In this document: one piece after another, positions 7,446 through 29,208 of the stretch | Position numbering within the stretch: the stretch's first letter is position 1 | How the letters are laid out: every line of letters starts with the position of its first letter | NCBI GenBank assembly: GCA_902805665.1 | Contig: CADCTB010000210.1 | Span: forward strand, 1 to 33,225 | From: an uncultured Acidimicrobiales bacterium | Lineage (GTDB): Bacteria > Actinomycetota > Acidimicrobiia > Acidimicrobiales > AC-14 | DNA: 33,225 bases | Direction of reading: 5' to 3' | Notes under the pieces: model-generated | Seen by the model: the letters and a program-made list of their open reading frames with translations, nothing else | What the model was told of the DNA's origin: nothing | Databases searched by the model: none | Position numbers and translations under genes: made by a program

Positions 7446-7460
7446 ATAAGGGAGCAACCG

Positions 7461-7949
7461 ATGATCTTCCTCCTCGTTTTGGCCATCGCCACCGCCGCCG
7501 CCCTCCTTGCCCTCCGAGGGCGGGCGCCTCGTACCGCCGCCCGCTGGGGCCTCGGCATCGCCATGGTGGTCGCCGGCGTGGCCCACCTGGCCAACCCCAC
7601 ACCGTTCGAGCAGCACCTCCCCGAATGGGTGCCCGCGGCAGGTGCTCTCATCGCGGCAACCGGCATCATCGAGATAGCTCTGGGCATCGGGCTCACGGTC
7701 GTCCGGAGCCGGCGGCGGCTGGTCGGGATGGCCACCGCCGCCTACCTCGCTGCTGTCTTTCCGGCCAACGTCTACGTGGCAGTGGCCGGCATCGACGTCG
7801 ACGGACAGCCGGGCGGCATCTATCCCTGGCTGCGGCTCCCGTTCCAGGCACTGTTCATCGCATGGGCGCTGTGGAGCACGGCCGAGCCCTCGGCGCCCGC
7901 AGAAGAGCCATTCGTCGACGAGCACCCACGGGCGACGGCGAACGGCTGA
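7461..7949 (+). CDS. DoxX-like membrane protein
   Basis: 162 residues with four hydrophobic segments (about 1-18, 29-47, 63-85 and 95-118, plus a C-terminal helix near 128-146). The GIAMVVAGVAHLANPTPFEQHLP motif is typical of DoxX/SURF4-like proteins, linked in some actinobacteria to thiol/oxidative homeostasis (family knowledge, weak for this member). ATG 7461 has AAGGGAG six nucleotides upstream. Expression is likely controlled by the divergent MerR regulator. A strong terminator follows. Confidence 0.8.
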   Translation: MIFLLVLAIATAAALLALRGRAPRTAARWGLGIAMVVAGVAHLANPTPFEQHLPEWVPAAGALIAATGIIEIALGIGLTVVRSRRRLVGMATAAYLAAVFPANVYVAVAGIDVDGQPGGIYPWLRLPFQALFIAWALWSTAEPSAPAEEPFVDEHPRATANG

Positions 7950-7955
7950 GGGGCG

Positions 7956-7987
7956 GGTGACGGCCGGCGGTAGCGCCGGCCGTCACC
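7956..7987 (+). terminator. Terminator hairpin after the DoxX-like gene
   Basis: Perfect 14-bp stem (7956-7969 with 7974-7987) and a GTAG tetraloop, 6 bp after the stop. No T tract follows. It ends 15 bp before the pyrophosphatase start. Confidence 0.65.
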
Positions 7988-8002
7988 GGGTAGGGGCTTC
8001 CG

Positions 8003-8512
8003 GTGAACGACGACGTGATCGACGTGCTGGTTGAGACGCCCAAGGGCAGTCGTTCCAAGTACGAATGGGACCACCACCGCGGTGGCCTGCGCCTGGACCG
8101 CCGGCTCGCTTCCGCCACCGTCTTCCCGGCCGACTACGGGTACGTGGCGGAAACCACGAGCGCCGACGGAGAAGCGCTCGACGCCCTGGTCCTCAGCTGG
8201 GACGGGACGTTTCCGGGCTGCTGGGTCAGGGCTCGACCGATAGGCGTGTTGTGGATCACCTACGCCGGCAAAGACGGCGGCGAGACCCGAGAGGCCAAGA
8301 TCCTCGCCGTCCCGGATCACGATCCGGACTGGGCCGAGGTTCGCGATCTCGACGACGTACCGAGCCACCGGCTGGAGGAGATCAGCCACTTCTTCGACGT
8401 CTACAAGGACCTCGAGCGGTCACGCACGACATCGCCCGGAGGGTACGAGAGCCGCGCCGTCGCCCTTCGGGTGATCGCCGAGAGCCGGGTTGCGGTGAGC
8501 GACACCGGGTAG
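8003..8512 (+). CDS. ppa: Divergent family I inorganic pyrophosphatase
   Basis: 169 residues, normal bacterial PPase length. Family landmarks are intact: VETPKGSRSKYEWD (Glu11, Lys19, Glu21), LDRRLASATVFPADYGY, VRARPIGVLWIT and HFFDVYKDLE (Tyr134-Lys135). The metal-binding signature is altered: the usual D-x-D-P-x-D reads DGEALD (Asp55, Glu57, Asp60), and the DAK element reads EAK (Glu97, Lys99) in a loop with a short insertion. Two catalytic-site Asp-to-Glu changes make it a divergent member; activity may persist or be altered. GTG 8003 has GGGG six nucleotides upstream. Confidence 0.85.
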   Translation: MNDDVIDVLVETPKGSRSKYEWDHHRGGLRLDRRLASATVFPADYGYVAETTSADGEALDALVLSWDGTFPGCWVRARPIGVLWITYAGKDGGETREAKILAVPDHDPDWAEVRDLDDVPSHRLEEISHFFDVYKDLERSRTTSPGGYESRAVALRVIAESRVAVSDTG

Positions 8513-8570
8513 CGGCACCGCCTGTTCGTCGGTGACGAGGACGTAGCATTGCCTCCTGGATCCCGGCGAC

Positions 8571-9392
8571 GTGACCCACACCCCTGAGCAACTCGATGCG
8601 TTCGCCAGGTGGGAGCGCCAGTCGTGGGAGGCGCGCGCCGCCTCCTATGCCAAGAGCATCACCGCCCTGACCCGGGGGGCGGCCGATGCCCTGCTCGACG
8701 CCGCCGACGTCAGGACCGGCACGGAGGTGCTCGACGCGGGGTGCGGGCCAGGCGTCGTCGCGCTTGCCGCCCGCCGTCGTGGGGCCGAGGTGACCGCCGT
8801 CGACCAGTCGGAGGCGATGGTGGCCCTCGCCCGCTCGGCGGGAGTCGACGCCCGGCAGGCCCCCGCCGACCGGCTGCCCTTCGAGACCGGCGCCTTCGAC
8901 GCCGCCGTCGCGGGGTTTCTGATCAACCACCTTCCCCGGCCCGTCGAGGGCGTCGCCGAGCTGGCTCGAGTGTGCAAGGCACGGGTGGCCGTCAGCGTCT
9001 GGGACGCGGCCGACGCCAACCCGGCTCTGGGCCTCTTCGGCCGCGTGGTGCAGTCCTTCGCCCTTGCCGATCCGGTACCCCCTGGGCCCGACAACTCGCT
9101 CTACTCCGACGACGCCCGGCTCACCGCCCTTCTCGCCGCCGGTGGGCTCGGCGACGTCCGCATCACCCGGGTGGCGTGGGCCCTCACCATCGAACCGGGG
9201 GCGTGGTTCGACGCCGTCGCGGCCGGCACGCCGCGCACCGGCGCGGTGCTCGCCGCCGCCTCCGCCGAGCGCCGGGCCGAGCTGCGAGCGCTGTACGTCG
9301 AGAGAGCCGGCGCCTCCTACGGGGGCGCAGACGGCCGGGTCACGCTGCCCGCTGCGGCCGTGATCGGCAGCGGCGTGAGGCCTGACGAGTAG
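8571..9392 (+). CDS. Class I SAM-dependent methyltransferase
   Basis: 273 residues. The Rossmann motif I is VLDAGCGPGVVALAARRRGA (about residues 48-67), followed by motif II AVDQSEAMVALAR, post-I ADRLPFETGAFDAAV, and later VAGFLINHLPRPVEGVAEL, the arrangement of ubiquinone/menaquinone-type or Methyltransf_11 enzymes. The C-terminal half (GPDNSLYSDDARLTALL onward) is a variable substrate domain. The substrate cannot be inferred. GTG 8571 lacks a clear Shine-Dalgarno, so the exact start is uncertain. Confidence 0.85.
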   Translation: MTHTPEQLDAFARWERQSWEARAASYAKSITALTRGAADALLDAADVRTGTEVLDAGCGPGVVALAARRRGAEVTAVDQSEAMVALARSAGVDARQAPADRLPFETGAFDAAVAGFLINHLPRPVEGVAELARVCKARVAVSVWDAADANPALGLFGRVVQSFALADPVPPGPDNSLYSDDARLTALLAAGGLGDVRITRVAWALTIEPGAWFDAVAAGTPRTGAVLAAASAERRAELRALYVERAGASYGGADGRVTLPAAAVIGSGVRPDE

Positions 9393-13116: not shown

Positions 13117-14076
13117 TCAGTCGCAATCCGGGGAGCGACCGAGCACTGCGCCGTTGCGGAGCACGGAGACCGGACCGTCCTCGCTCACCGCGATGACGGT
13201 GGCCAGGGGGTCGTCGAAGCTGTAGCGGCGGCCGGACGTGTGCCGGGTCCCCCGGAACGCCTCGACGGTCTCCTCGGCGGTGTTGCTCGGCACCAGGCGC
13301 ACGCCGAGCTGGCGGAGCACCCCCTCGGCGTCGAAGACGGCAGCGCCGTCGATCTGGCCCAGCGCGTGCCGGAGGGGGGCGAGCTCAGAGGCTTCTCGGA
13401 TCCGGAGGTGCGGGGGCCTCGGCAACCGTTCCTCGACAGGAGGACCGGGAGAGGGATCGGACCGGTAGATGAGCAAGGAGCCGATCCCCCTCGACCCGAG
13501 GTCGTGGACGGCGAACTCCAGCAAGGCTTCGAGCACCTCCGAATCGCCGTGGTCCGGGCTGGCGGTGACGGTGTCGATCCAGCTGGTGATCGGAGGTTCG
13601 TGGTGCCAGGTGAAGCCCTGCCAGCGGAGGACCCCGAACGGCCCCACGATCCGGACCGATCCGGACGGATGTCGCTGGATGATCGTCGCGTCGAAGACCT
13701 CGGCCAGGACGACGAGGTCGCGCTCCGAGCCGGCGGGTCGGTCGAAGACCATCCACTCGATGGCGCCGTCGGTCCGGCGTAGGAGCCAACTCGACAGCCC
13801 ATCGGCGAAGCGCCGGGCCGCGGTGAGGGGCTGCTTGTCAGCCGATCCGCGCTTGATGCGGAGCTTGACTCCGGCCTCCCACGTGCCCGGATCCGACCTG
13901 GGCTCGAGCACCGTGCCCGAGCTGGCGATCCGGCGCTCGTGCACGGGTGGCCGGAGCGCAGCATCTATCTCATGCAGGAGCATCTCCCGGAACTCCTGCG
14001 GTCCTTCCAGCCGCAGGCCACTCTCCTCGAGCTCCTCGGCGAGTCGTCGCAGTCGCCCGGGGGCGGCCTCAGGCAT
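13117..14076 (-). CDS. DisA_N (diadenylate cyclase-type) domain protein
   Basis: 319 residues. Residues 180-312 resemble the DAC domain: EALLEFAVHDLGSRGIGSLL, IDGAAVFDAEG with the DGA motif at 243-245, and FRGTRHTSGRRYSFDDPLA with Arg-His at 278-279, ending VIAVSEDGPVSVLRNG. Canonical enzymes have RHR; here the third residue is Thr. The first 175 residues form a separate domain I cannot name. No DisA linker or HhH DNA-binding domain and no membrane helix are present, so it is neither a DisA nor a CdaA architecture. c-di-AMP synthesis is plausible but not assured. It lies 42 bp downstream of the AHSA1 gene on the same strand. Confidence 0.75.
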   Translation of the reverse strand: MPEAAPGRLRRLAEELEESGLRLEGPQEFREMLLHEIDAALRPPVHERRIASSGTVLEPRSDPGTWEAGVKLRIKRGSADKQPLTAARRFADGLSSWLLRRTDGAIEWMVFDRPAGSERDLVVLAEVFDATIIQRHPSGSVRIVGPFGVLRWQGFTWHHEPPITSWIDTVTASPDHGDSEVLEALLEFAVHDLGSRGIGSLLIYRSDPSPGPPVEERLPRPPHLRIREASELAPLRHALGQIDGAAVFDAEGVLRQLGVRLVPSNTAEETVEAFRGTRHTSGRRYSFDDPLATVIAVSEDGPVSVLRNGAVLGRSPDCD

Positions 14077-17528: not shown

Positions 17529-18527
17529 CTAGCGCGACATGACGAGCTTCTTGGTGTCGACCTGGCCGTTGAACTCGCCGATGTCCTTCAGCACCTGGAC
17601 CCACCTGTCGAGATCGCCGGCGCGCACGTCGAAGTTGTAGGTGGGCAGGGGGACGCTGGAAGCCACGGCCTCAGGCAGCTTGGTGTACTCCTGGAGGATC
17701 CGTCGGGCCTCGGCCGGGCTCTGACCGATGAACGCCTCAGCCTCCTTGAGCGACGTGACAAAGCGAGCCACCGCGTCGCGGTTCTTGTTGGCCCACGAGC
17801 CCTGTGCCAGCCAGAAGTTGGTCGCCAGCGGGTCGCCGATGGCGTCGAACGGGGTGGCGATGGAGACGTTGCCTGCCCTGATGAGCTGGCTGGCGATGGG
17901 CTCCAGCGCCTCGACGGCGTCGATGCGCCCGGCTCGAAGCTGGTCGGGCAGGTTGGGCGTCGGCGCCTCGACACCGCCGACCTTCGACGGGTCCCCACCC
18001 TTCTCCTTGACCTGGTACTTCACCGCGGCGTGGATGACGCCGCTGAGGGTGGGCGTCCCCACTGTCTTGCCCTGGAGCTGGCTCACGTCGGTGATGCCCG
18101 AGTCGGCCTTGACGATCACCTTGACGAACGGGTTTTCCTTGGTGCTGTTGGTGTTTCCTGCCGCCTGGATGACGTCGACGCCTGCGGCTCCAGCCCTGAT
18201 CAGGTCGGTGGCGGTCCCGAGGGCGAGGTCGAACTGGCGCCCGAGGGTGGCCGGGATGTCGGAGATGTTGGCGGCCTCGGTGAGGGTCACGTTCAGGTTG
18301 TTCTTCTCGAAGATGCCTTGGGCCTTGGCGATGTGGAGAGGCAGGACGGTCGTGGCGGGAACGTAGGAGACCCGAAGCTCGGTCGGACCGGCGCTGGTGG
18401 CTTGCGATCCGCTCTGCGTCTCCGAGGAGCTGCCGCCCCCACCGCACGCAGCTGCGACGAGACCGAGGGCTGCGGCTGCGGCTACCGCGGCGCGGCTACC
18501 GGACCGAAATCTCCTTGACTGGTTCAT
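17529..18527 (-). CDS. NMT1/SsuA-like ABC substrate-binding lipoprotein
   Basis: 332 residues. Lipoprotein signal with lipobox AAAC (Cys28) then a Gly/Ser linker. The mature part is an NMT1/TauA/SsuA-type type-2 periplasmic fold: LRVSYVPATTVLPLHIAKAQGIF, then FDLALGTATDLIRAGAAGVDVI, KTVGTPTLSGVIHAAVKY and AGRIDAVEALEPIASQLI. Relatives bind taurine, alkanesulfonates, nitrate or pyrimidine precursors (family knowledge). No matching SsuB/SsuC-type permease or ATPase is nearby; its neighbours are peptide-type transporter genes. AAGGA lies 9 nt before ATG 18527. A TGCAAC tandem element precedes it. Confidence 0.88.
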   Translation of the reverse strand: MNQSRRFRSGSRAAVAAAAALGLVAAACGGGGSSSETQSGSQATSAGPTELRVSYVPATTVLPLHIAKAQGIFEKNNLNVTLTEAANISDIPATLGRQFDLALGTATDLIRAGAAGVDVIQAAGNTNSTKENPFVKVIVKADSGITDVSQLQGKTVGTPTLSGVIHAAVKYQVKEKGGDPSKVGGVEAPTPNLPDQLRAGRIDAVEALEPIASQLIRAGNVSIATPFDAIGDPLATNFWLAQGSWANKNRDAVARFVTSLKEAEAFIGQSPAEARRILQEYTKLPEAVASSVPLPTYNFDVRAGDLDRWVQVLKDIGEFNGQVDTKKLVMSR

Positions 18528-18597: not shown

Positions 18598-18629
18598 GTT
18601 CTAAGAGCCGCCATTGCAACGTCGTTGCA
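18598..18629 (-). promoter_or_regulatory. TGCAAC tandem box and -10, NMT1-like gene
   Basis: On the - strand, TGCAAC (18629-18624), 5 nt, TGCAAT (18618-18613), then 9 nt to TAGAAC (18603-18598). Start codon 64-70 nt further on. Same layout as four other promoters in the window. Confidence 0.65.
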
Positions 18630-18678
18630 TGACTCGGGCGCCGGAGCGATGGTCTGCGTCGCTGGTCGTCGCGACCCG

Positions 18679-19479
18679 TCAGCCGGCCGTTTCGAGGCGG
18701 CCCACTTCGGCCGCGGCATGCAACAGCATCTTCGTATAGGGGTCACTCGGGGACTGGAAGACCTCGGCGGTGCGCCCACACTCCACCAGCCGCCCCTGCT
18801 GCATGACCGCCACCTGCTCGCCGACCGCCCCGGCCATGTCGAGGTCGTGGGTGATGACCAGGAAGGCGATCCCATGACGGTCCCGCAGGTCACGGATGAC
18901 CTGCACGATGCTGCCCCGCAAGGTGGCGTCCACCATCGACGTCGGCTCGTCCGCCACCACCAGGCGTGGACGCCCGACGAGGGCCCGGGCCAGCACCACG
19001 CGCTGGCGCTGGCCGCCGGACAGCTGGTGGGGATAGCGCTGAAGGAAGTCCGAGGCGGGCGTCAGCCCCACCTCCTCGAGCGCTTCGTAGACCCTGGGAG
19101 AGCTTGCCCGTCCCGTCCCCGCGATCTGGAGCGGCTCGGCCACGGCCGAGGCCACCCGCATGCCGGGGTGCAGGGACTGGTATGGGTCCTGGAGCACGAG
19201 GTGCATGTTCCGGCGGAGATGGCGCAGCTGACGCTCCCGCAACCGTGCGTACTCGACCCCGTCGAACAGAAGCTCGCCGGAGTCGAGGCGCTCGAGGCCC
19301 ACGACGGCGCGACCGAGCGTGGACTTGCCCGACCCACTCTCGCCGACGAGGGCGACGATCTCGCCCTCCCCTACCGCGAGCGACACGTCGTCGAGAGCGG
19401 CGACACGGCGGCGGCGAGAGCCGGTTCCGGTACGGAACGTCTTGCTGGCGTCCCGGATCTGAAGGATGGCATCGGTCAT
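18679..19479 (-). CDS. Peptide-type ABC transporter ATPase (DppF/OppF-like)
   Basis: 266 residues, one ABC domain. Walker A GESGSGKST (about 44-52), Q-loop LQDP, signature LSGGQRQRV, Walker B RLVVADEPTSMVD and the H-loop VITHDL are all intact. The C-terminal extension (VECGRTAEVFQSPSDPYTKMLL) is the usual oligopeptide transporter tail. The preceding gene's stop overlaps its ATG by 4 nt (ATGA at 19476-19479), so it is coupled to the permease-ATPase fusion. It is the last gene of the transporter block. Confidence 0.92.
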   Translation of the reverse strand: MTDAILQIRDASKTFRTGTGSRRRRVAALDDVSLAVGEGEIVALVGESGSGKSTLGRAVVGLERLDSGELLFDGVEYARLRERQLRHLRRNMHLVLQDPYQSLHPGMRVASAVAEPLQIAGTGRASSPRVYEALEEVGLTPASDFLQRYPHQLSGGQRQRVVLARALVGRPRLVVADEPTSMVDATLRGSIVQVIRDLRDRHGIAFLVITHDLDMAGAVGEQVAVMQQGRLVECGRTAEVFQSPSDPYTKMLLHAAAEVGRLETAG

Positions 19480-21155
19480 GCTCGTGCTCCCAGAGGTGAA
19501 AGGCGGGTGTTCAGGAGGCGACGGCTGTAGTCCTCGGTCGGAGCGGAGGCCACCTTCGACGCGTCGCCGCGCTCGACGACGCGGCCGTCCTCCAGGATCA
19601 CCAGCTCGTCGGCCACGCGCAGGACCATCTGCACGTCGTGGGTGATGATCAGCACGGTGAGGCCGAGGCGGTCCTTCAGGTCCTGCACCAGCCGGAGGAT
19701 GGAGGCCTGGGTGACCAGGTCGAGGCCGGTCGTGGGCTCATCCGCGATGAGGAGATCGGGCGAGTTGGCCAGCGCCATGGCGATGATCACCCGCTGGCGC
19801 ATGCCGCCGGAGAGCTCGTGGGGATAGGCCTGGTGGGCCGACGCCGGCAGGCCGACGTCGCCGAGCAGCTCGGTGGCCCGCCGGCGCGCCCTGTCGGGCG
19901 GCATCGTCAGCTCAGCGGCCTCGGCGATCTGGGCGTGGATCGTGTACGCCGGGTTCAGGGCGTTCATGGCCGCCTGGGTGACGAGGCCGATCCGGCGGCC
20001 GCGCACCCGGGCCGCGGCCGCGGCGGAGAGCAGCTTCCGGCCTTCGAAGGTCGCCTCCCCCTGCACCACGGGATCGCCCGGCAGCAGGCCCAGCAGTCCC
20101 ATCACGATGGTGCTCTTGCCCGACCCGGACTCACCGACCAGGGCGGTGATGCGGCCGCGGGGCACCTCGAAGCTCACGCCCTTCACTGCCGGCGGGGTGC
20201 CCCTCCGGTACGACACCACCAGGTCGCGCACCTCCAGGATCGGATCTCCGGCCGGAGCAACGGGGGCGACCGTCGGGGGCCGGCGGCGAGGCCCACTGAG
20301 GAAGCGGAGCCGCCCCGACGTGCTGGCCAGCCGCGGGTCGGCCCATTCCTCGCAGGCGTAGCCGGTGAAGGCGAAGCCGAGCACGACCACGGTGAGGGCG
20401 AACCCGGGCGGCAGCATCCACCATTTCCAGGCCCCGGTGAGCAGGGCGTTGTTGGAGCTGGCGTTGGAGAGCATGATCCCCCAGCTGGCCTGGTTGGGGT
20501 CGCCCAGCCCGAGGAAGGCCAGCGCCGCTTCCGAGATCACCGCCGCGTTCGCCACCCGCACGAACTGGGCCGAGGCCAGCGGCGTGAGCCGGGTGAGGAT
20601 GTGGCGGGAGACGATGCGGGTGCCGGAACCACCCATGGCCCGGGCGGCCTGGACGTGCTGGAACTCCCGCAGCTTGAGCACCTGGGCCCACAGCACCCGG
20701 GCGGGCCGGGCCCATGACACGGCGGCGATCACCACCGCGGTGGTGACCAGGCCCCGACCGAGGAAGGCGGCAAGGACGAGCACGAGAGGCAGGAACGGGA
20801 AAGCCAGGGTGACGTCGGTCAGGCGCATGAGCACCGCCTCGGCCCATCCCCGCTTCCACCCGGCCACCACGGCCACGAGCAGCCCGATGGCCAGCGCCAG
20901 GGCGGCCGCCCCCACGCCGATGGCGAGGGAGATACGGGCGCCGTAGACGAGTTGGGCGAAGATGTCGACGCCGAGGTCGTCGGTGCCGAGGGGGTGGCCC
21001 AGGCCCGGGCGTCGCAGGGGGAGTCCGCTGGGACGGGTGGGCGAGTGGCGGGCCACCAGCGGTGCGAACATGGCAGCCGAGGCGGAAAGGGCCAGCAGCA
21101 CCAGCCCGAGTCGACCAAGGGTCCTGCCAGGACTTCGCTTCAGAGTGGAGCTCAT
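19476..21155 (-). CDS. Permease-ATPase fusion of a peptide-type ABC transporter (DppC-DppD)
   Basis: 559 residues combining two subunits. Residues 1-265 are a DppC-like permease: GHPLGTDDLGVDIFAQLVYGARISL, then the EAA loop RAMGGSGTRIVSRHILTRLTP region and about five helices. After a Pro-rich linker, residues 295-545 are a complete ATPase with Walker A GESGSGKST, signature LSGGMRQRV, Walker B DLLIADEPTTGLD and H-loop IITHD. Such fusions are known in actinobacteria. ATG 21155 overlaps the preceding permease stop (ATGA). Confidence 0.92.
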   Translation of the reverse strand: MSSTLKRSPGRTLGRLGLVLLALSASAAMFAPLVARHSPTRPSGLPLRRPGLGHPLGTDDLGVDIFAQLVYGARISLAIGVGAAALALAIGLLVAVVAGWKRGWAEAVLMRLTDVTLAFPFLPLVLVLAAFLGRGLVTTAVVIAAVSWARPARVLWAQVLKLREFQHVQAARAMGGSGTRIVSRHILTRLTPLASAQFVRVANAAVISEAALAFLGLGDPNQASWGIMLSNASSNNALLTGAWKWWMLPPGFALTVVVLGFAFTGYACEEWADPRLASTSGRLRFLSGPRRRPPTVAPVAPAGDPILEVRDLVVSYRRGTPPAVKGVSFEVPRGRITALVGESGSGKSTIVMGLLGLLPGDPVVQGEATFEGRKLLSAAAAARVRGRRIGLVTQAAMNALNPAYTIHAQIAEAAELTMPPDRARRRATELLGDVGLPASAHQAYPHELSGGMRQRVIIAMALANSPDLLIADEPTTGLDLVTQASILRLVQDLKDRLGLTVLIITHDVQMVLRVADELVILEDGRVVERGDASKVASAPTEDYSRRLLNTRLSPLGARA

Positions 21156-22210
21156 CCCCCCACCTTTCCGGGACGGCGGACCCGCGGGTCCAGGAACGGA
21201 TACACGAGCTCGGCCACCAGGTTGGCGGCGATGACGCCGAGGGCGATCAGCAGGAAGCACCCCTGGAGCACCGGATAGTCGCGGCTCAGGACGCTCTCGT
21301 AGATGAGGCGGCCGAGGCCGGGATAGGAGAACACCGTCTCCACCGGCGCCGCACCGCCGAAGAGGGCGCCGACGTTCAGCATGGCCACCGTCCACACCGG
21401 CACCAGGGCGTTGCGGCGGGCGTGGCGGCGGACACCCGAGGGGTCGAGACCCTTGGCCGCGGCCATGGTGACGTAGTCCTCGCCCAACTCCGACACGGCC
21501 GACGAGCGGGCCACGAGGTAGGCCGACCCGAGGCCGGCGAGCGTGAGGGCGGCGATCGGCAGGACTGCCCGGCGGGCCACTTCGAAGGCGAAGGCCAGGC
21601 CCTGCGCCTCGGTTCCGGGCAACGCCCCGAACACCGGGAGCAGCTTGAGCTGCACGGAGAAGAGCAGCATGAGCAGCAGGGCCACGAAAAACGGTGGGAA
21701 CGAGTCCGCCACCATCACGCCGGTGAGGGTGCGCACGTCGGACCTCGTGCCTCGGCGCCAAGCGGATCGGAAGCCCAGTGCGGCGCCGATGAGGGTGGAG
21801 AGCAGCACGGACGTGCCCACCAGGAGCAGCGTCCAGGGGAGGCGCTCGGCCAGGAGGGAGGTTACGGGGCGGCCGTGCCGGGTCGAGATGCCGAGGTCTC
21901 CCTGGACGAGGTTGCCCAGGTAGCGGGTGAACTGCTCCCACTCCGAGCCGTTCAGCCCGTAGCTCCCCGCCAGCTGCTCACGCTGTTCGGCGGAGATGGC
22001 GTTGGCCTGCTCGGCCGGGACCAGGAAGTCGATCGGGTCGCCGGGGGCGAGACGGGGCAGCGCGAAGTTGAGGATGACCGCCACACCCAGCACCAGCGCG
22101 GCCAGGGGAAGCGCCCGCAGGAACTGGCGGCCGATGGGGACCAGGCCGCTCCACCGGCTGTCCGACTGGTGTCCGAACGCCTCGGTCGGCGTCAATGAGA
22201 TGTCAGCCAC
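21152..22210 (-). CDS. Peptide-type ABC permease (DppB/OppB-like)
   Basis: 352 residues. A first helix (about 30-50) is followed by the family's periplasmic segment LAPGDPIDFLVPAEQ...GLNGSEWEQFTRYLGNLVQGDLG, then five more helices. The EAA-like loop reads EDYVTMAAAKGLDPSGVRRHARRN, contacting an ATPase. GTG 22210 has GAGG seven nucleotides upstream; a start at 22264 would overlap the tandem TGCAAC element. It has its own promoter-like element and is separated from the binding protein by a hairpin, so it may be transcribed separately. Confidence 0.92.
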   Translation of the reverse strand: MADISLTPTEAFGHQSDSRWSGLVPIGRQFLRALPLAALVLGVAVILNFALPRLAPGDPIDFLVPAEQANAISAEQREQLAGSYGLNGSEWEQFTRYLGNLVQGDLGISTRHGRPVTSLLAERLPWTLLLVGTSVLLSTLIGAALGFRSAWRRGTRSDVRTLTGVMVADSFPPFFVALLLMLLFSVQLKLLPVFGALPGTEAQGLAFAFEVARRAVLPIAALTLAGLGSAYLVARSSAVSELGEDYVTMAAAKGLDPSGVRRHARRNALVPVWTVAMLNVGALFGGAAPVETVFSYPGLGRLIYESVLSRDYPVLQGCFLLIALGVIAANLVAELVYPFLDPRVRRPGKVGG

Positions 22211-22242
22211 GGGAGTACCTCGTTGCTCGTCGTTCAGGACCA

Positions 22243-22274
22243 AACATGGCGGCTGCCGTTGCACCGGCGTTGCG
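22243..22274 (-). promoter_or_regulatory. TGCAAC tandem box and -10, permease gene
   Basis: On the - strand, CGCAAC (22274-22269), 5 nt, TGCAAC (22263-22258), 9 nt, CATGTT (22248-22243). The predicted start site is about 26 nt before GTG 22210, leaving room for its GAGG ribosome-binding site. Confidence 0.65.
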
Positions 22275-22293
22275 TGTGTTTCGTGGCGCAGGA

Positions 22294-22323
22294 AGGGCGG
22301 GCGCCGGGGGGGACGCCCGCCCT
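22294..22323 (-). terminator. Hairpin after the binding-protein gene
   Basis: Perfect 10-bp stem (AGGGCGGGCG 22294-22303 with 22314-22323) and 10-nt G-rich loop, 15 bp beyond the binding-protein stop. It could reduce read-through so that binding protein and permease levels differ. Confidence 0.6.
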
Positions 22324-22338
22324 ACCCGAGCAGGGGCC

Positions 22339-24138
22339 TCAGGCCTCTTCGGCCTCGAAGGCCTCCCGTCGCCGGCTGCGGCCGGCGAGCGCCCCGGCAC
22401 CGACGACACTGAGTCCGAGGACCACACCGATGGCGGCCCACGGCGGGCCGTCGTCCGCACCTGCGCTGCTCGCAGGCGTGCCCTCGGCCGCCGTTTCATA
22501 GCCCCGGATGAAGGAGCGCTTGGTCAGGATGCCGTGACCGGTGTCGGCGATCCAGCCGTTGTAGGCGGCCGTCCTGTAGGCGTAGTCGCCGTTCGGGTAG
22601 TACAGGACGAGCGCCGGGGCATCGGCGGCGTAGATGCGCTGCGCGTCCACCAGCAGGCGCTTCCGGTCGGTGTTGTCGATGGTCGCCCGGGCCTGCTCGA
22701 CCAGCTGGTCGAACTGGGGATTGGAGTAGCCACCGAAGCTTCCGGCCGGGGCGCCTGGCGCCGGGGAGTGGAAGAAGAAGTAGAGGGCGTCGGGGTCGGC
22801 GTGGGCGTGGGACTCCAGGTTGGTGATGAAGGAGTCGTAGTTGCCGGTGCCTCGGCGTTGGCGCAACGTGGCCGCGTCGATCGATTCGACGTTGATCTTG
22901 ACCCCGATGGACTCCACCTGCTGGGCGATCAGCTGTGCCGACCGCTGGTGCTGCGGCTCGTTGGCCGCCACCGAGAGGCCGAACTCCAGCCGGTTTCCTT
23001 CAGCGGTCCGCCGGACGCCATCCTCGCCTCGGCGGTAGCCCGCGTCGTCGAGGGCCTGGTTGGCCTTGGCGGCATCGAAGACGTGGCCACCCTGCGGGTC
23101 GGCCCACGCCGAGTCCGGGTGGACCCAGGTGTCACGGCCGGGACGGGCGTGGCCGAGGAGGACCGTCTGCACGATGGCGTTGAGGTCGATGCCCTCGGTG
23201 ATCGCGTTGCGCACCCGGGTGTCGGCCAGTGCTCCCTTCCGGTTGTTGAAGTGGAGGTGCACAGACTCCATCCGGGTCGACTGCACGACCTTGATCCCGG
23301 GCTGGTTCGACATCTGGTCGAACAACTCCGGCGGCACGGCCCGGTCGACGCTGTCGATCTGTCCGGTCTGCAGGGCGGCGAAGGCGGCGGACTGGTCACG
23401 CACGATCGGAAGGTCGATGGCGTCCACCTTCGGCTTGCCCTTGAAGTAGGCGGCGTTGGCCTCGAGCCGGTAGATCTGGTCCGGCACGAACGAGGCCATC
23501 TTGTACGGGCCCGTCCCCACCGGGAGGATGTCGGTGGCCTTGCTGGCGTCGTCGATCTTCTCCCAGATGTGCTTGGGCACGATGGGGAGGTCGCCACCGG
23601 GGAGGATCTTGAACGTCGGCGCCGCGTCCCGGAAGTTGATGCGCACGGTCAGCGGGTCGAGGACCTCGGCCGACTCGAACACCGGGTACTCCCAGACGTG
23701 GTGGCTGTAGCGGCCGCCGGTGGTCGACTTCATCTTCTGGAAGGTGAAGGCGACGTCATCGGCGGTAAGGGGTTGACCGTCGTGCCAGGTGACTCCGGGA
23801 CGGAGCTTGACGGTCCACTGCTTGCGGTCGGGCGACGGGTCGGCGCTCTGGGCCAGCCAGGGCTCCGGCTCGTCCTTGACCTGCGACCAGAACAGGGTGT
23901 CGTACACCAGGTTGGTCAGGTCGTGGCTCACGGGAAGTCCGAGCAGCGTCAGGGTGAACGGGGTGAGGTTGTTCTCACTGGCCTTGATGGCGACGGTGAC
24001 CTTCGACGCAGGCGGGCTGCCCGAGGACTGCGCGGCTGCGCCGGGTGAGACGCCTGCGACGACGGTGGCGCTCAAGGCAAGTGCGGCGATGCCGCCGGCG
24101 CGTCGCCGGCGCTTGGATGCGGGCTGCATGGTGTTCAC
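22339..24138 (-). CDS. Peptide-type ABC substrate-binding protein (SBP_bac_5) with C-terminal membrane anchor
   Basis: 599 residues. N-terminal signal (KRRRRAGGIAALALSATVVAG, ending GAAAQ) without a lipobox Cys. The SBP_bac_5 domain shows LTNLVYDTLFWSQV, KLRPGVTWHDGQPLTADDVAFTF, VGTGPYKMASF and VRNAITEGIDLNAIV. At the C-terminus a hydrophobic helix (about 565-587, AAIGVVLGLSVVGAGALAG) is followed by RSRRREAFEAEEA, so it is probably anchored there rather than by lipid. GTG 24138 has GAAGGAG nine nucleotides upstream. It is the first gene of the importer block and carries a TGCAAC element. Confidence 0.9.
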   Translation of the reverse strand: MNTMQPASKRRRRAGGIAALALSATVVAGVSPGAAAQSSGSPPASKVTVAIKASENNLTPFTLTLLGLPVSHDLTNLVYDTLFWSQVKDEPEPWLAQSADPSPDRKQWTVKLRPGVTWHDGQPLTADDVAFTFQKMKSTTGGRYSHHVWEYPVFESAEVLDPLTVRINFRDAAPTFKILPGGDLPIVPKHIWEKIDDASKATDILPVGTGPYKMASFVPDQIYRLEANAAYFKGKPKVDAIDLPIVRDQSAAFAALQTGQIDSVDRAVPPELFDQMSNQPGIKVVQSTRMESVHLHFNNRKGALADTRVRNAITEGIDLNAIVQTVLLGHARPGRDTWVHPDSAWADPQGGHVFDAAKANQALDDAGYRRGEDGVRRTAEGNRLEFGLSVAANEPQHQRSAQLIAQQVESIGVKINVESIDAATLRQRRGTGNYDSFITNLESHAHADPDALYFFFHSPAPGAPAGSFGGYSNPQFDQLVEQARATIDNTDRKRLLVDAQRIYAADAPALVLYYPNGDYAYRTAAYNGWIADTGHGILTKRSFIRGYETAAEGTPASSAGADDGPPWAAIGVVLGLSVVGAGALAGRSRRREAFEAEEA

Positions 24139-24220
24139 GTGCGGGGGCTCCTTCGGTTGATGGCGGCCGGACGGGCTGACTGGCTTCCTCGGGGGAAGGC
24201 CACCGGGGGCCAGTGAACAG

Positions 24221-24252
24221 AGCATCCGATGGCGCGTTGCACGCAGGTTGCA
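24221..24252 (-). promoter_or_regulatory. TGCAAC tandem box and -10, binding-protein gene
   Basis: On the - strand, TGCAAC (24252-24247), 5 nt, TGCAAC (24241-24236), 9 nt, GATGCT (24226-24221). It lies back-to-back with the + strand box at 24261, 8 bp apart, forming a four-copy symmetrical site. Confidence 0.68.
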
Positions 24253-24260
24253 TGGCGCAA

Positions 24261-24292
24261 TGCAACGGGCGTGCAACGGCGACCTTCACCAT
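24261..24292 (+). promoter_or_regulatory. TGCAAC tandem box and -10, DUF983 operon
   Basis: TGCAAC (24261-24266), 5 nt, TGCAAC (24272-24277), 9 nt, CACCAT (24287-24292). The predicted start site is about 28 nt before ATG 24327, with AAGGAGG in between. Confidence 0.68.
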
Positions 24293-24326
24293 GGGGTTGA
24301 CCGACCGACCCAAGGAGGCTCCGGCC

Positions 24327-24797
24327 ATGGAGGACCGAGTGCGTGACATCGAGCAGGCTCCGACACCGGCACGCATGCTGATGCGGGGCGCCATCAAGCG
24401 GTGCCCGAACTGTGGCGCTCGTGGGCTGTTCACGAACTGGTTCCGGATGGCCGAACGCTGCCCTACCTGCGACTACCGCTTCGAGCGCGAGGAAGGCTTC
24501 TTCCTCGGCGCCTACGTCATGAATCTGGCAATCGCCCAGGGCCTCGTGATGCTCCTGGCCGTCGTCCCGACCATCGTCCTGTTGAATGCCGACGCGGACG
24601 CCAGCCTGGTGCCTGCCATGGTGGGTGGGCTCATCGGGGCGGTGCTGGCGCCGCTGTTCTTCTACCCGTTCTCCAAGACGTTGTGGGTGGCAATCGAGCT
24701 GACCCTGCGTCCCGTGGACGAGACGGAGCCTTCCGACGTCCGGCCCGGCCGTCCCGAGCGCACAGAGTCGGCCGCCGCCGTGCGGCCCGTCCGATGA
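24327..24797 (+). CDS. DUF983 zinc-ribbon membrane protein
   Basis: 156 residues. A zinc-ribbon with two Cys pairs (RCPNCGARGLF and RCPTCDYRFEREEGFFLGAY) is followed by two membrane helices (about 60-84 and 90-112) and a polar, Pro/Glu-rich tail. This is the standard DUF983 layout, of unknown function. ATG 24327 is fixed by AAGGAGG at 8 nt. It is translationally coupled (ATGA) to the DUF1275 gene. Confidence 0.87.
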   Translation: MEDRVRDIEQAPTPARMLMRGAIKRCPNCGARGLFTNWFRMAERCPTCDYRFEREEGFFLGAYVMNLAIAQGLVMLLAVVPTIVLLNADADASLVPAMVGGLIGAVLAPLFFYPFSKTLWVAIELTLRPVDETEPSDVRPGRPERTESAAAVRPVR

Positions 24798-25507
24798 TCG
24801 CGCTTCTGTCCGGGAGCCGGCTCGCCGGCCGCTGGGACGCCACCCGTGCCGTCACCCTCGGTCTCGTGGGTGGGTACGTGGACACCGTCGGCTACATCAT
24901 GTTGCGCGGGCTGTTCCCGAACCACGTGACCGGCAACCTCCCTATCGCCGCCGCTCATCCCGGACGGCAGGCCATCCCGCTGCTGATCATGGTGCCCCTC
25001 TGGCTGGCGGCGGTGATCGCCGCCGCCGGGGCGGCAGGACGCATCGAGCGCCGGAACTCCTCGGCGGTGCTCCCGGTGATCCTCGGCGCAGAGGCCCTGC
25101 TTCTCGGCCTGTTCCTGGTCATGGGCGTGGCCCTGATTCCCGACCGGGACGCGTCGACACTGGTGACGCAGACGGTCGTGGGAGCAGCCGGCGTGTGCGC
25201 GATGGGCGTGCAGAGCGTGGTGACCCGACTGGGCGGCTATGCGTTCCCGACGACCATGGTGACCGGCACGCTCACGCTGCTGGGTATGGACAGCGCGCAG
25301 GCCCTGTTCGGAGCGCAGCCGAGCGGCGAACGGGCGGTTGTCGTGCGTCGGGTCAAGGCGTTCGGCAAAGTCGTGCTCGGCTTCGCCGTGGGTGCCGCGC
25401 TCGGAGGATTGATGGCCGCGGTGGTCCAGTTCTGGGCGATCGTCCTACCGCTCGGCGCCGTCGCCATGTGCGCCTGGGGGCAGGCTCGGGTCGACTCCCG
25501 TCACTAG
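24794..25507 (+). CDS. DUF1275/YoaK-family membrane protein
   Basis: 237 residues, about six membrane helices. VTLGLVGGYVDTVGYIMLRGLFPNHVTGNL is the diagnostic N-terminal segment, and GVQSVVTRLGGYAFPTTMVTGTLTLLG repeats the pattern in the second half, so the protein has the family's internal pseudo-symmetry. Function unknown, transport suspected. Its ATG overlaps the DUF983 stop, and its last 4 bases overlap the end of the convergent regulator gene. Confidence 0.87.
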   Translation: MIALLSGSRLAGRWDATRAVTLGLVGGYVDTVGYIMLRGLFPNHVTGNLPIAAAHPGRQAIPLLIMVPLWLAAVIAAAGAAGRIERRNSSAVLPVILGAEALLLGLFLVMGVALIPDRDASTLVTQTVVGAAGVCAMGVQSVVTRLGGYAFPTTMVTGTLTLLGMDSAQALFGAQPSGERAVVVRRVKAFGKVVLGFAVGAALGGLMAAVVQFWAIVLPLGAVAMCAWGQARVDSRH

Positions 25508-28500
25508 TACCGGGCCGCCAACGCGCCGGTGAGCCGGCCCCGGGTGACGAACCCGTCGCGCAGCTCGGACGGGAGGGCGGCGGCGAGCCGGTGGAAGGCC
25601 GCCTGCGACTCGGAACGGGGCGCAACCTCGGCGACGAGCAGGTCGGACCCGGTTGCCATCGCCGCGACCACCGCCTCCTCATGTCGACCGAGGTGGGCCA
25701 GGGCCAAGGCTTCGTATTTGCGGGAGCGCCGTTCGAGGGACACCTCGAGCAGCTCCTCCGCCTCCTCGGGAACGAGCCGGCAGCGAACCTCGCGGTACCG
25801 CAGGTCGGCCCGCCACTTGAACGGCAACCAGGTCGACAAGAGCGGCTGAGCCTGGTCGACGAACGCGCCGGCGGCATCCTGGTCTCCCGCCAGCAGGGCG
25901 CACTCGGCGGCGCCGAGGAGGCCATGGAGCTCCTGCTCCACCTGCAATGAGCCGGCCTTCACCTCCCGCGCCTCGGCGACGGCCTGCTCGGCCAGATCAC
26001 CTGCCCGGCCCAGGTCGCCGACCTCCCGCCACACCCACGACAGCAGGGTGTCGGTGCGGGCCCGGTAGAAGTGGACGTCGTACTCCTCGAGCAGACGGCG
26101 CTTGCGCTCGAGGGCCCGGAGGGCGCCGCCGAAGTCGCCGAGGTTCCCCCGGGCCAGCCCGGCGAAGAACAGCGTCCGCAAGAGGGGCCGGAACGCTCCG
26201 GTGCGCGCCGACTCGGCCGCGGCCTGGTCGAGCGTGCGACGGGCCTCGGTGAAGCGGTCGCCGTGCTCGAGCAGGGCGCCGAGACAGCTCAGCGCCGAGG
26301 CCATGGTGGCCGGATCCGGAGCCCGTGACAGGGCCTCCTCGTAGGCGCCTGCGGCCCCGTCTATGTCGCCCGCCCAATGGCGAATGCGTCCGACCAGGAC
26401 CAGGGCGCTCGGCAGGGCGCCCGGGGCCGCAGCCGCAGACTCCGCGAGCTCCGCCGCCCGGCCCGCCAGCTCGGTGGCGACGGCGGAGTCGCGGCCGTAG
26501 TACGCCGTCCAGCCCAGCCGCTCGAGCGCCTGCGCCTCCAAGGCGTCGTCACCCAGCCGGCGGGCAGCTTCGAGGGCGGCGGTGTGGTCGGCCTGTGCTC
26601 CTTCGTAGTCCGCCAGCTCCTCCTTGAGCTGGCCCCTCCGGATACGGGTACGGGCGAGCGCCGCTGTGTCCCCGGCCCGGTCGGCGCAGGTCACCGCCTC
26701 CGACAGGAGGCGCTCGGCATCGCGCAGGGCGAAGGCGCGAATGGCATGCTCGGCCGCCGCCGACCAGAGCTCATGGGCTTGCGCCCAGTCGCCGACAGCG
26801 GCGAGATGGGCGGCCGCCGCCTCGGGACGATCAGGCAGTCGGGCCGCGGCCCGACGGTGTTGGCTCGCCCGTATGGGGTCCGCGGTCGTCGCGTACAGGA
26901 CGTCGCGGATGATGCTCCCGGCGAACTCGAAGCGGTTCCCCGCAGTCACGACGAGGCCGGCGCGGAGCGCACGCTCGGCGCGACGTACTGCGTCGCCGAT
27001 CCCGACGTCGGCCAGATCGGCGACGAAGTCGAGGTCGAACCTCGACCCGACCACGGCAGCCACCCTCAGGAGCTCCTCCACGTCTCTTCCCGCCCGGGCG
27101 ACACGTTCCTCGACGACGCGGGCGAGCGACTCCGGCTGGGGCGCCCCGTCACCTCCGGCCGTCAGACGAAGGGCCTCGACGACGAACTGGGGGTGGCCGC
27201 CGGTGCGCTCGAACAGCTCGGTGGCGCTGACCTCCTGCGCCTCGAAGCGGCGAGCCAGCTCCTCCACCGCGGCGAGTGGAAGCGGCCCGAGAGTCATCCG
27301 ATCGGCGTCGCCACCGAAGAGCGGGAGAACGTCCTCGGCCCTGTCCGAGGCCACCGTCCCGAGTACGAGCATGGGCTCGTTCGTCAGCCGTTCGAGCAGG
27401 AAAGCCAGCGCCTCGTGCGTCGATTCGCCGCCGTGGTGGAGGTCGTCGAGGAGCAGCAGGACGGGCTGCTCCCGGGCCAGCCGCTGGAGGAAGCCGGTGA
27501 CGGCCTCGAGCGATCGCCTGTGCTCGAGCTCCGGCGTGGCCCGCTGGTAGCCGGCCACCGTGACGATCGAACGGAGCTCCGGCATGAGCTCGGTCAGGGT
27601 GCCGGCCCACTGGCCGGCCAGCTCGTGCAGCCGCTCCGGGCTCATCGTGTCCAGCAGTCCCCGCAGCGCCTCGAGGATCGGCTGCAGGAACAGCGACCGC
27701 TCGGCCTCCCGACACCCGGCCCGCAGCACCGCGGCACCGGAGGCCCCGGCCCGGCCCGCCACCTCGGTGACCAGCCGGCTCTTGCCGACGCCTGCGGCGC
27801 CCGACACGAGCATCACGCCGCATCGACCCCCGGCGGCAGCCGCCCACCGACCGACGAGAGTCGAGATCTCCCTCTCCCGACCGACCAGCGCCGACGTGGT
27901 GGCGGGAACGGCTGCGAGCGCCTCAGGCACCTCGCGGGATGGAGATACGGGCTCGGACCGCAGGATGGCCAGGTACAAGGCCTCCGTGTCGGCACTCGGA
28001 TCGGCGCCCAGCTGTTCGACCAGCGTCTCCCGGAGCCGCTGGTACGCGCTAAGGGCCGCGGCCGCGTCGCCGCCGAGGTAGAGGGCCTGCATGACCGCCC
28101 GGTGAGCCTCCTCGTCGAGCACGTCGGCGACGATGGCCCGCTCCGCGACATCGAGAGCCACTCGGTGCTCGCCGAGAGCCAGGGCGGCGGTCCACGCCGC
28201 CCTGCGGACGCGGCGGGCCAGTCGCTCGGCCTCCCGGCGACCGTCGCCCGCCCAGATGGCATAGGGCTCGTCCTCGAGGAACTGGCCCCGTTCCAACAGC
28301 TGGCGCGCCTGTGCGGACGCGGATGCCGCCAACGCCGGGCGGCCGCTCCGCAGCTGGCCCTCGGCCTCCTTGACCAGCCGCTCGGCCTCGTCGACGTCGA
28401 TCCAGCAGCCGGCCGTCTCGAACCGGTAGCCGCTGCGACCGCCGACGATCCGGTCCGCCCCCAGGAGCCGTCGCAGCCGGCTTACCAGGGAGGCGACGTT

Positions 28501-28716
28501 CTGCGCGGCGCCGAGAGGCGGGTCGTCCTCCCACAGCGCGTCGGCGATGGCGTCCACGGAGACGAAGGACCGACGGCGGACGACGAGCAGCTGGAGGACC
28601 GTCGTGGCCTTCCCGACCGGAGGGCGAATGGTGTCCCCGGCGACGAGGTCGAAGCGACCCATGAGCCGGACGCGGAGCTCCGGCGCCGGGAACTGGTCCA
28701 CCCCGATGTCGGCCAC
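25504..28716 (-). CDS. SARP/BTAD-AAA-TPR transcriptional regulator
   Basis: 1070 residues. Residues 13-100 form an OmpR-type winged helix (ELRVRLMGRFDLVAGD, VDAIADALW, NVASLVSRLRRLLG, GYRFE). Residues 105-255 are the BTAD domain, ending in QLGADPSADTEALY. Residues 275-560 are an NTPase module with Walker A GAAGVGKS (306-313) and Walker B LLLLDDL (about 419-426). The remaining 500 residues are TPR-like helical repeats. This is the large AfsR/SARP architecture, known to bind direct repeats of 11-bp period. GTG 28716 has CACCAT 6 nt upstream and no Shine-Dalgarno. It lies 60 bp after the DsrE-like gene on the same strand. Confidence 0.92.
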   Translation of the reverse strand: MADIGVDQFPAPELRVRLMGRFDLVAGDTIRPPVGKATTVLQLLVVRRRSFVSVDAIADALWEDDPPLGAAQNVASLVSRLRRLLGADRIVGGRSGYRFETAGCWIDVDEAERLVKEAEGQLRSGRPALAASASAQARQLLERGQFLEDEPYAIWAGDGRREAERLARRVRRAAWTAALALGEHRVALDVAERAIVADVLDEEAHRAVMQALYLGGDAAAALSAYQRLRETLVEQLGADPSADTEALYLAILRSEPVSPSREVPEALAAVPATTSALVGREREISTLVGRWAAAAGGRCGVMLVSGAAGVGKSRLVTEVAGRAGASGAAVLRAGCREAERSLFLQPILEALRGLLDTMSPERLHELAGQWAGTLTELMPELRSIVTVAGYQRATPELEHRRSLEAVTGFLQRLAREQPVLLLLDDLHHGGESTHEALAFLLERLTNEPMLVLGTVASDRAEDVLPLFGGDADRMTLGPLPLAAVEELARRFEAQEVSATELFERTGGHPQFVVEALRLTAGGDGAPQPESLARVVEERVARAGRDVEELLRVAAVVGSRFDLDFVADLADVGIGDAVRRAERALRAGLVVTAGNRFEFAGSIIRDVLYATTADPIRASQHRRAAARLPDRPEAAAAHLAAVGDWAQAHELWSAAAEHAIRAFALRDAERLLSEAVTCADRAGDTAALARTRIRRGQLKEELADYEGAQADHTAALEAARRLGDDALEAQALERLGWTAYYGRDSAVATELAGRAAELAESAAAAPGALPSALVLVGRIRHWAGDIDGAAGAYEEALSRAPDPATMASALSCLGALLEHGDRFTEARRTLDQAAAESARTGAFRPLLRTLFFAGLARGNLGDFGGALRALERKRRLLEEYDVHFYRARTDTLLSWVWREVGDLGRAGDLAEQAVAEAREVKAGSLQVEQELHGLLGAAECALLAGDQDAAGAFVDQAQPLLSTWLPFKWRADLRYREVRCRLVPEEAEELLEVSLERRSRKYEALALAHLGRHEEAVVAAMATGSDLLVAEVAPRSESQAAFHRLAAALPSELRDGFVTRGRLTGALAARY

Positions 28717-28776
28717 CCGAGGATGGTGTCACCTCGGCGGGCGGGTCGCACGAACCGATAGTGCGAAGAGAAGGGC

Positions 28777-29148
28777 TCAGCCGAGGTGGACCAGGACCGA
28801 TCGCCCTTCCGCGACCTCGACGAGGATCTCCGACAGCGGCCGCGCCCGTGCGCCGATGGCCGCGACCTGCTCGTCGTTGATGCCCCGGCGCTCGGTCGAC
28901 CGCGGGCACACCGACACGTCGACCCCACCTTCGTGGGCGCTGTCGATCCGGCTGCGCAGGTCGGCTGCCCCCCGCACCGTCGCCACGAACGCGGGGTCGG
29001 CGGCGAACACCGCGTCACCGGCCAGCCGTACCTCGGCGTCGACCTCCGCCACGGCAGCAGCCGAGGCGAAACGGTACGCGGCAGCGAGCGGGCCGGTGTC
29101 GGTGGCCGGGTTGACGCCGACGAAGAAGATCAGCTTCATGCGTTTCAC
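28777..29148 (-). CDS. DsrE-like protein
   Basis: 123 residues from GTG 29148, chosen because GGGAGG lies 4 nt upstream; ATG 29139 is the alternative (120 residues). MKLIFFVGVNPATDTGPLAAAYRFASAA is the DsrE/F opening strand and helix, and GGVDVSVCPRSTERRGI carries the conserved Cys (Cys81) at the position used for sulfur transfer in the family. The sulfur acceptor here is unknown. It precedes the SARP-type regulator and its promoter bears a TGCAAC element, so the pair is likely autoregulated. Confidence 0.75.
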   Translation of the reverse strand: MKRMKLIFFVGVNPATDTGPLAAAYRFASAAAVAEVDAEVRLAGDAVFAADPAFVATVRGAADLRSRIDSAHEGGVDVSVCPRSTERRGINDEQVAAIGARARPLSEILVEVAEGRSVLVHLG

Positions 29149-29176
29149 GATTCCTCCCTGAGTGCTCCGTGTGGCC

Positions 29177-29208
29177 AAGATCACATGGGCACTTGCACAG
29201 CGGTTGCA
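29177..29208 (-). promoter_or_regulatory. TGCAAC tandem box and -10, DsrE-regulator operon
   Basis: On the - strand, TGCAAC (29208-29203), 5 nt, TGCAAG (29197-29192), 9 nt, GATCTT (29182-29177). The predicted start site is about 22 nt before GTG 29148. Confidence 0.65.

Follow-up and report, generated by a model that had tools for sequence, protein, structure and literature searches.

A 33,225-nt stretch of DNA from an uncultured Acidimicrobiales bacterium (assembly GCA_902805665.1, contig CADCTB010000210.1), referred to here as the window, carries a group of importer genes, a DUF983-DUF1275 pair and a gene for a large regulator of the Streptomyces antibiotic regulatory protein (SARP) type. 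Ahead of these genes lie five tandem repeats of TGCAAC-like hexamers, here called boxes, each followed at a fixed distance by a second hexamer resembling a -10 element (nAnnnT). Genomes are denoted G (G000 being the genome of the window), contigs C and individual loci L. The genes and boxes concerned are the following.

17529-18527, (-): NMT1/THI5-like solute-binding lipoprotein, from domain search
18679-19479, (-): second ABC ATPase of the importer, from domain search
19476-21155, (-): fused DppC-type permease and ATPase; start picked by eye at an in-frame ATG, domain matches on the open frame 19476-21941
21152-22210, (-): DppB-type permease; domain matches made on frame 21152-22264
22339-24129, (-): family-5 solute-binding protein (SBP_bac_5), Nik/Opp/Gsi-like, under all NCBIfam cut-offs
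24327-24797, (+): DUF983 protein; start set by eye at the ATG after AAGGAGG
24794-25507, (+): DUF1275 protein; 4-bp overlap with the DUF983 gene
25504-28716, (-): SARP-type regulator, 1070 aa; winged helix and BTAD at about residues 14-252, AAA_16 ATPase at 277-451, TPR-like C-terminal part
28777-29139, (-): DsrE-like protein, 120 aa, with Cys78 in CPRS; 60 bp ahead of the regulator gene on the same strand
18598-18629, (-): box 1, TGCAACGACGTTGCAA, preceding the NMT1-like gene; close to a palindrome; hexamer TAGAAC, in which position 6 is not T
22243-22274, (-): box 2, CGCAACGCCGGTGCAA, hexamer CATGTT, ahead of the DppB-type permease gene; homologs boxed in G003 and G007
24221-24252, (-): box 3, TGCAACCTGCGTGCAA, hexamer GATGCT, ahead of the family-5 solute-binding protein gene; orthologs boxed in G003 and G007
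24261-24292, (+): box 4, TGCAACGGGCGTGCAA, hexamer CACCAT, ahead of DUF983-DUF1275; DUF983 boxed in G003 and G007
29177-29208, (-): box 5, TGCAACCGCTGTGCAA, hexamer GATCTT, ahead of DsrE-regulator; DsrE beside the regulator boxed in G007 and G008

The DsrE and regulator genes probably form an operon. Within the importer, the permease (DppC type) and an ATPase (DppD type) are fused in one frame (window 19476-21941).

The box pattern, YGCAAC-N5-TGCAA, was searched as YGCAACNNNNNTGCAA, with the reversed pattern as control. Five exact copies occur in the window, all intergenic and oriented toward their genes, with their repeat pairs at 18614-18629 (-), 22259-22274 (-, the CGCAAC copy), 24237-24252 (-), 24261-24276 (+) and 29193-29208 (-). 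In each, TGCAA is followed by 10 nt and then by the hexamer, which has A at position 2 in all five and T at position 6 in four, the exception being TAGAAC. A preliminary description of the window, made from its letters alone, had listed the same five sites with these hexamer letters, and all were recovered at its coordinates and on its strands; its remark that the window has no other tandem pair holds for exact pairs, and both unpaired TGCAAC copies, at 15666 (+) and 18719 (+), lie inside called genes, as it had said. That five boxes cluster in one region could be taken as a sign of chance or of local duplication of intergenic DNA, yet 100 dinucleotide shuffles gave a mean of 0.03 boxes and a maximum of 1, the flanks and inner spacers vary from box to box, and orthologous genes are boxed on other contigs and in other genera, which leaves this explanation scarcely credible. 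When up to two mismatches were allowed, 8 sites were found in the window against a shuffle mean of 2.7, one of the extra sites being the opposite strand of the nearly palindromic site at 18614. That strand of box 1 (18614-18630) also reads TGCAACGTCGTTGCAT, and the next called gene in that direction lies on the other strand.

The spacing of the repeats is equally distinct. Among YGCAA pairs in the window and ten loci fetched because of the regulator, 19 are spaced by 11 bp and no other period between 6 and 26 bp accounts for more than 3, making 11 bp the sole enriched period. A matrix built from 15 sites has CGTGCAACGGC repeated twice as its consensus; six matches were omitted from it (G000:C193, G003:C87, G007:C233 and three in G002), of which G007:C233 was fitted later and is included in the hexamer counts and start-codon measurements. 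The scores of this matrix on its own 15 sites are high by construction and carry no weight as proof. Rfam gave no match in the window or in three further loci.

Across the genome of the window (3.52 Mb, 227 contigs), the exact pattern has 7 matches, five of them inside the window, and the reversed control has none; as far as this check goes, exact boxes are not dispersed over the whole genome. With one mismatch the pattern gave 14 matches and the control 15, an absence of excess because of which no degenerate extra sites are claimed. A sixth good box is found on contig C63, 86 bp ahead of a gene for an NMT1-like protein 85% identical over 305 residues to that of the window; genes for an ABC ATPase and two permeases come after it. 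The seventh match, on C193, has no hexamer and is probably a chance occurrence. Since the C63 box precedes a paralogous NMT1-type operon and the C193 match lacks the hexamer, the genome most likely has six such promoters; the five-promoter regulon of the preliminary description stands for the window and needs the C63 promoter added to it. Beside the boxed C63 operon, at L016:5233-5700, lies a piece of a DUF1275 gene, 83% identical and covering residues 8-163 only, which represents a truncated paralog.

Conservation in relatives links the boxes to the regulator. The family set comprises 10 genomes, G000 included, and close orthologs of the regulator occur in four of them, G000, G003, G007 and G008, at 53-79% identity outside G000 (G003 76% and 53%; G007 62% and 79%, split over two contigs; G008 67% and 61%). 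The best regulator match in five of the other six reaches 31-36%, and G009 has none. Exact boxes are present in all ten genomes, with 26 matches in total. What separates the two groups is the hexamer: after exact boxes in the four regulator genomes, A is found in 16 of 18 cases and T in 13 of 18, against 2/8 and 0/8 in the six other genomes, where one G002 site is palindromic and its other strand likewise lacks both A and T. Leaving out the five window boxes, the regulator genomes still have A in 11/13 (binomial 3e-8). Long loci fetched from the regulator genomes agree, with A in 24 and T in 20 of 27 pairs; both letters are absent (0/3 each) from loci of the same order that lack a close ortholog. 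Loci of named distant relatives gave each letter in one of seven hexamers; judged by title, Chloroflexota-type genomes make up 16 of 17 of these relatives.

The boxes also precede the same genes. The family-5 binding protein, DppB and DUF983 genes are boxed in G000, G003 and G007, the DsrE gene in G000, G007 and G008, and the NMT1-like gene twice in G000 and once in G008. In G003:C101, boxes stand ahead of the family-5 binding protein and DppB; in G007:C78, ahead of DUF983, the family-5 binding protein and a divergent DppB-type gene; DUF983 is boxed in G003:C66 as well. DsrE is boxed in G007:C170 and G008:C26, in each case adjoining the regulator, and G008:C26 has a further box ahead of an NMT1-ATPase-permease-permease operon. 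Two G003 boxes precede other genes, namely a VOC-family gene near the 76% regulator and a 201-aa gene without an assigned family. The latter (L071:8712-8727, G003:C94) is a fitting box followed by the 201-aa gene and then by a gene for a BNR-repeat protein (genes 6449-8661); the 201-aa gene is a candidate G003 target, with no counterpart seen in the window. Because family-5 proteins of at least 64% identity and DUF1275 occur in the regulator genomes only, the family offers no boxless ortholog as a control.

Beyond the family, the order sample comprised 298 genomes drawn from a larger group, 10 from the family and 288 from outside it. Close regulator orthologs among the latter are limited to G120 (47%), G087 (44%) and G050 (54% and 43%, split); the remaining matches in the order at E <=1e-60 are 34-37% identical. 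A loose pattern including the hexamer was run on an equal number of genomes independently of the regulator and gave 98 matches outside the family by eye count, with control patterns also matching in many genomes as background. Three of the 98 fall on regulator contigs, 5.8 kb from the gene in G120 and 2.1 kb and 38 bp from it in G087. The probability of three such matches within 6 kb of a regulator by chance is about 5e-8, an approximate Poisson value that assumes uniform density and takes each genome as 3.1 Mb and the regulator surroundings as 60 kb. A looser pattern finds four boxes near the G087 regulator; two are TGCAAT variants, and each is followed at a constant distance by the hexamer GACCAT or GAGGCT. 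Boxes beside orthologs of 44-47% identity extend the co-occurrence to two further families. The expectation that boxes would be conserved in relatives keeping the regulator and missing elsewhere is borne out in the family, with G003, G007 and G008, and extends to G120 and G087. No box was seen in loci of G141, G038 and G111 that have the importer-DsrE gene order or part of it; these genomes lack a close regulator ortholog.

The regulator itself belongs to the SARPs by its domains. Its BTAD match scores 77 bits against a cut-off of 22.1 (2.6e-21), and its Trans_reg_C match is slightly below cut-off (25.8 against 26.2 bits). With 1070 residues and an AAA_16 match of 94.5 bits, it corresponds to the large SARP subtype (about 1000 residues, ATPase of NB-ARC/AAA type, TPR); the weakest point of that assignment is the TPR part, where the TPR_12 match reaches 22.4 bits, below the cut-off of 30.1. 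Walker A (GAAGVGKS) is found at 306 and a Walker B-like LLLLDD at 420. By sequence, the closest solved structures are EmbR and AfsR. An AlphaFold model of residues 1-270 (mean predicted local distance difference test score 90) gave template-modelling scores, by query, of 0.82-0.84 with EmbR and 0.78-0.79 with AfsR in its transcription complex; the next structural matches are TPR proteins at E 6.5e-4 and worse. SARPs are known mainly as activators of antibiotic clusters. The targets in the window are importers, DsrE and DUF983-DUF1275, and none is a biosynthetic cluster such as antibiotic-cluster SARPs control.

Within the SARPs, the regulator and its orthologs form a separate clade. In a tree of 27 sequences, nine orthologs (the boxless G050 included) lie on one side of a branch with support 99/97. 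Their recognition helix reads V-x-(S/T)-L-x-S-R, with V replacing S/T in ten sister-clade sequences, an ortholog-specific residue that correlates with the boxes and does not amount to proof of DNA contact. Alignment with AfsR shows partial agreement in the DNA-contact residues: W74, P79 and R94 are kept, as are R92 and S91; T88 is altered to Ser, K95 to Arg and Q48 to Lys, and S80, Q81 and R87 are changed. A contig search with the regulator returned one close relative (L081, 76%) and 17 others at 27-33%.

The boxes are most likely the sites of this regulator, since in relatives they are found together with it. We put the probability that they are operators of the resident large SARP, with its winged helix, BTAD, STAND-type ATPase and TPR parts, at roughly 0.85. 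The regulator query finds 24 matches in its own genome, fragments and ATPase-only matches included, and because so many similar regulators exist the assignment rests on co-occurrence. The preliminary description had called it the only such regulator here, which is correct for the window and not for the genome; its proposal that the resident SARP reads the boxes draws support from the co-occurrence within the family and in two more distant families. The same 24 matches leave room for a different regulator, either another BTAD protein or one of the MerR, ArsR or XRE type, that binds the boxes and has the neighbouring SARP merely as one of its regulated genes. The box ahead of DsrE-regulator would indeed place the SARP among the targets, genes of the MerR and ArsR types are present elsewhere in the window, and an XRE-cupin gene lies near a cluster in G007 described below. 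Among the called genes of the window, however, no regulator but the SARP has a clear homolog in the ten box or regulator loci of relatives that were compared: the ArsR-type gene has one match there (35% over 54 aa), and the DsrE partner only a 29% match in box-bearing G003. The SARP clade is, moreover, present in every genome that has hexamer-bearing boxes ahead of these genes, and the box geometry fits SARPs, which together make another binder unlikely.

Several observations weigh against the assignment of the boxes to the SARP, or against its completeness. Two of the 18 exact matches in regulator genomes (G000:C193, noted above as lacking its hexamer, and G003:C87) have none, and a family-5 importer paralog in the genome of the window (C218, 54% identical) has no box. 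No good box was found in about 20 kb around the regulator paralogs G008:C11 (67%) and G003:C79 (53%), the one loose match near G008:C11 falling inside a gene, nor on the two short regulator contigs of G050. As G003 and G008 carry two paralogs each, the pairing of boxes with copies is ambiguous there. Loose matches in G007:C137 and G003:C72 were rejected as boxes, both being inside genes, and G004, which is without the regulator, has one match that fits the loose pattern. At least two boxes of relatives (G007:C233 and G087 5161) extend into the end of the gene called before them, and the gene set in G087 differs, with haloperoxidase-like and phosphotransferase-like genes.

Start codons place the boxes in a promoter register. 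In G007, each of the five fitting boxes has the start codon of its target 6-7 nt beyond the hexamer, a distance to be expected of leaderless transcripts that begin there, should these genes be leaderless; in G087, an ATG at 6 nt is found for one of four boxes. At most other boxes the likely start is at least 28 nt beyond the hexamer, usually after a stretch resembling a ribosome-binding site. If the G007 genes are leaderless, the hexamer would cover about -12 to -7 and the repeats -40 to -19, with the first T of the repeats at -38 and -27. The AfsR repeats are reported at -40 to -30 and -29 to -19, with the -35 element spanning -38 to -33, and AfsR is reported to bind no longer once T-38 or T-27 is altered (PMC10936776). 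The first T of each box repeat would hence coincide with the two T positions reported as critical for AfsR (PMC10936776). The preliminary description had the promoter-proximal repeat take the place of the -35 element; this has to be corrected, as the reported SARP geometry puts the upstream repeat there (PMC10936776). According to the same source, SARP operators are direct repeats at 11 bp (or 22 bp) with the 3' repeat 8 bp from the -10 element (PMC10936776). The boxes conform to this, with their 11-bp period and, counting 7-mers TGCAACG, 8 bp between the proximal repeat and the hexamer. The AfsR repeat is given as CGTT(T/C)ATCGNN (PMC10972967); of its 9 specified positions, 7 match CGTGCAACGGC.

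The fixed distance from box to conserved hexamer might also be expected if the boxes were core promoter elements of an alternative sigma factor with TGCAA as its -35. A sigma factor, however, has no need of two repeats spaced strictly by 11 bp, the nAnnnT hexamer has the look of an ordinary housekeeping -10, and the presence of boxes tracks the SARP clade; such a role is very improbable.

Recognition by the large SARP can be set beside three known systems. AfsR and the afs box of Streptomyces coelicolor (PDB 8hvr, 8k60) are alike in the winged helix-BTAD-ATPase-TPR architecture, in two 11-bp direct repeats over -40 to -19, in a poor -35 and in a weak -10 (CACTGT, also nAnnnT). They differ in that AfsR is 25-27% identical to the regulator over the SARP part, that the repeat core here is GCAAC, and that the targets here are importers, DsrE and DUF983-DUF1275. 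Because AfsR has also been reported on the phosphate and nitrogen promoters pstS, phoRP and glnR (PMC10936776), a SARP acting on nutrient genes has precedent. The SARP-LAL regulators PimR, SanG and PolR share the 11-bp period, a GCAA core and a large SARP with an ATPase region, the PimR heptamer being reported as CGGCAAG with 4-nt spacers (PMC5930380). Their targets are antibiotic clusters, the main PimR operator is reported not to overlap the -35 box, and the likeness to PimR noted here is one of operator and architecture. EmbR of Mycobacterium tuberculosis (PDB 2fez, 2ff4) has the SARP fold and is the best structural match of the regulator; it differs in having a reported C-terminal FHA domain where the regulator has ATPase-TPR (PMC10936776). 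A search of the literature on SARPs in Acidimicrobiia and on regulators of TGCAAC direct repeats found no such regulon, and within the limits of that search the proposed SARP regulon and its operator are both new, and its targets are unusual.

In the proposed mechanism, the promoters have a weak -10 (nAnnnT), and two SARP protomers would sit next to each other on the two 11-bp repeats (CGTGCAACGGC twice), from about -40 to -19. Once bound, the protein would assist RNA polymerase in the manner of AfsR. Its activity would be gated by the ATPase-TPR part in response to a signal; activation as the direction of control, ATP gating and the signal are carried over from AfsR by analogy. The regulon would consist of six promoters serving the family-5 importer (through its binding-protein and permease promoters), two NMT1-like proteins, DUF983-DUF1275, and DsrE with the regulator. 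As box 5 precedes DsrE-regulator, the regulator is probably autoregulated through the DsrE promoter. For an uncharacterised SARP clade in uncultured Acidimicrobiia, the analysis proposes the sequence of the operator, a set of targets and a promoter register. A search for the box may reveal the regulon of each ortholog, and through the box DUF983, DUF1275 and a DsrE family, apparently selenocysteine-bearing in relatives, are linked to importers.

The DsrE-like protein (Pfam PF02635, 6.4e-11) is of interest for its cysteine. In 14 of the 15 order genomes outside the family that gave a match, the relative has one in-frame TGA, as in L172:6368-6727, L173:9295-9654 and L174:9238-9597, all on (-). 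The TGA of L172 is codon 78 and aligns with Cys78 of the window protein (UPGC against CPRS). Overall, Cys78 is aligned with Cys in two relatives and with TGA-encoded residues in three, consistent with a DsrE/DsrF-like protein. This suggests that the TGA-bearing relatives are selenoproteins; DsrE-like selenoproteins with UXXC have already been described (PMC1088965). No selenocysteine insertion sequence family was found by Rfam in the window and three loci. In L172 (6368-12223), the TGA-bearing DsrE gene stands directly after genes for a binding protein, a permease, a permease-ATPase and an ATPase, and in L174 (9238-12382) directly after part of the same importer genes; because of this order, DsrE is tied to the importer independently of the boxes.

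A further boxed gene group is known from relatives. G120 and G007 have a box ahead of genes that are homologous to each other, of 126 and 100 aa respectively (35% identity, 8e-17). The boxed G007 cluster contains ComA, two lyases, a PALP enzyme, AllG/AllH and nitrile hydratase, and that of G120 a lyase, a PALP enzyme, AllG and nitrile hydratase; parts of the cluster also adjoin the regulators of G008:C11, G003:C79 and G050, where no box is nearby. At L171:701-14531 (G007:C233), the cluster consists of ComA (phosphosulfolactate synthase), DUF7714, lyases, PALP, AllG/AllH, nitrile hydratase alpha and beta, a DsrE-like protein and an XRE-cupin regulator. Parts of it were seen in L166, L168, L169, L073 and L068, near SARP orthologs in four genomes. 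A ComA search of the genome of the window gave no match, an empty answer that alone proves nothing.

As to physiology, the best guess, and a tentative one, is the uptake and handling of an organosulfur compound. It draws on three points, each of them weak: the NMT1-like protein is nearest to the SsuA family (72 against 163.5 bits, far under the cut-off), DsrE has its Cys78/TGA position, and relatives have the boxed ComA cluster. The gene set of G087 does not fit this theme. A broader and more doubtful idea is that this large-SARP clade of Acidimicrobiia is devoted to nutrient acquisition, sensing organosulfur (or selenium) status, perhaps via DsrE as a redox or sulfur sensor feeding the ATPase-TPR part, and switching on NMT1/sulfonate-type and family-5 importers and, in some relatives, the ComA and nitrile-hydratase cluster. 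Elsewhere in the window, at 13117-14076, lies a gene for a protein that combines a DACNK sensor domain with a nucleotide-binding domain of the DisA type (DAC).

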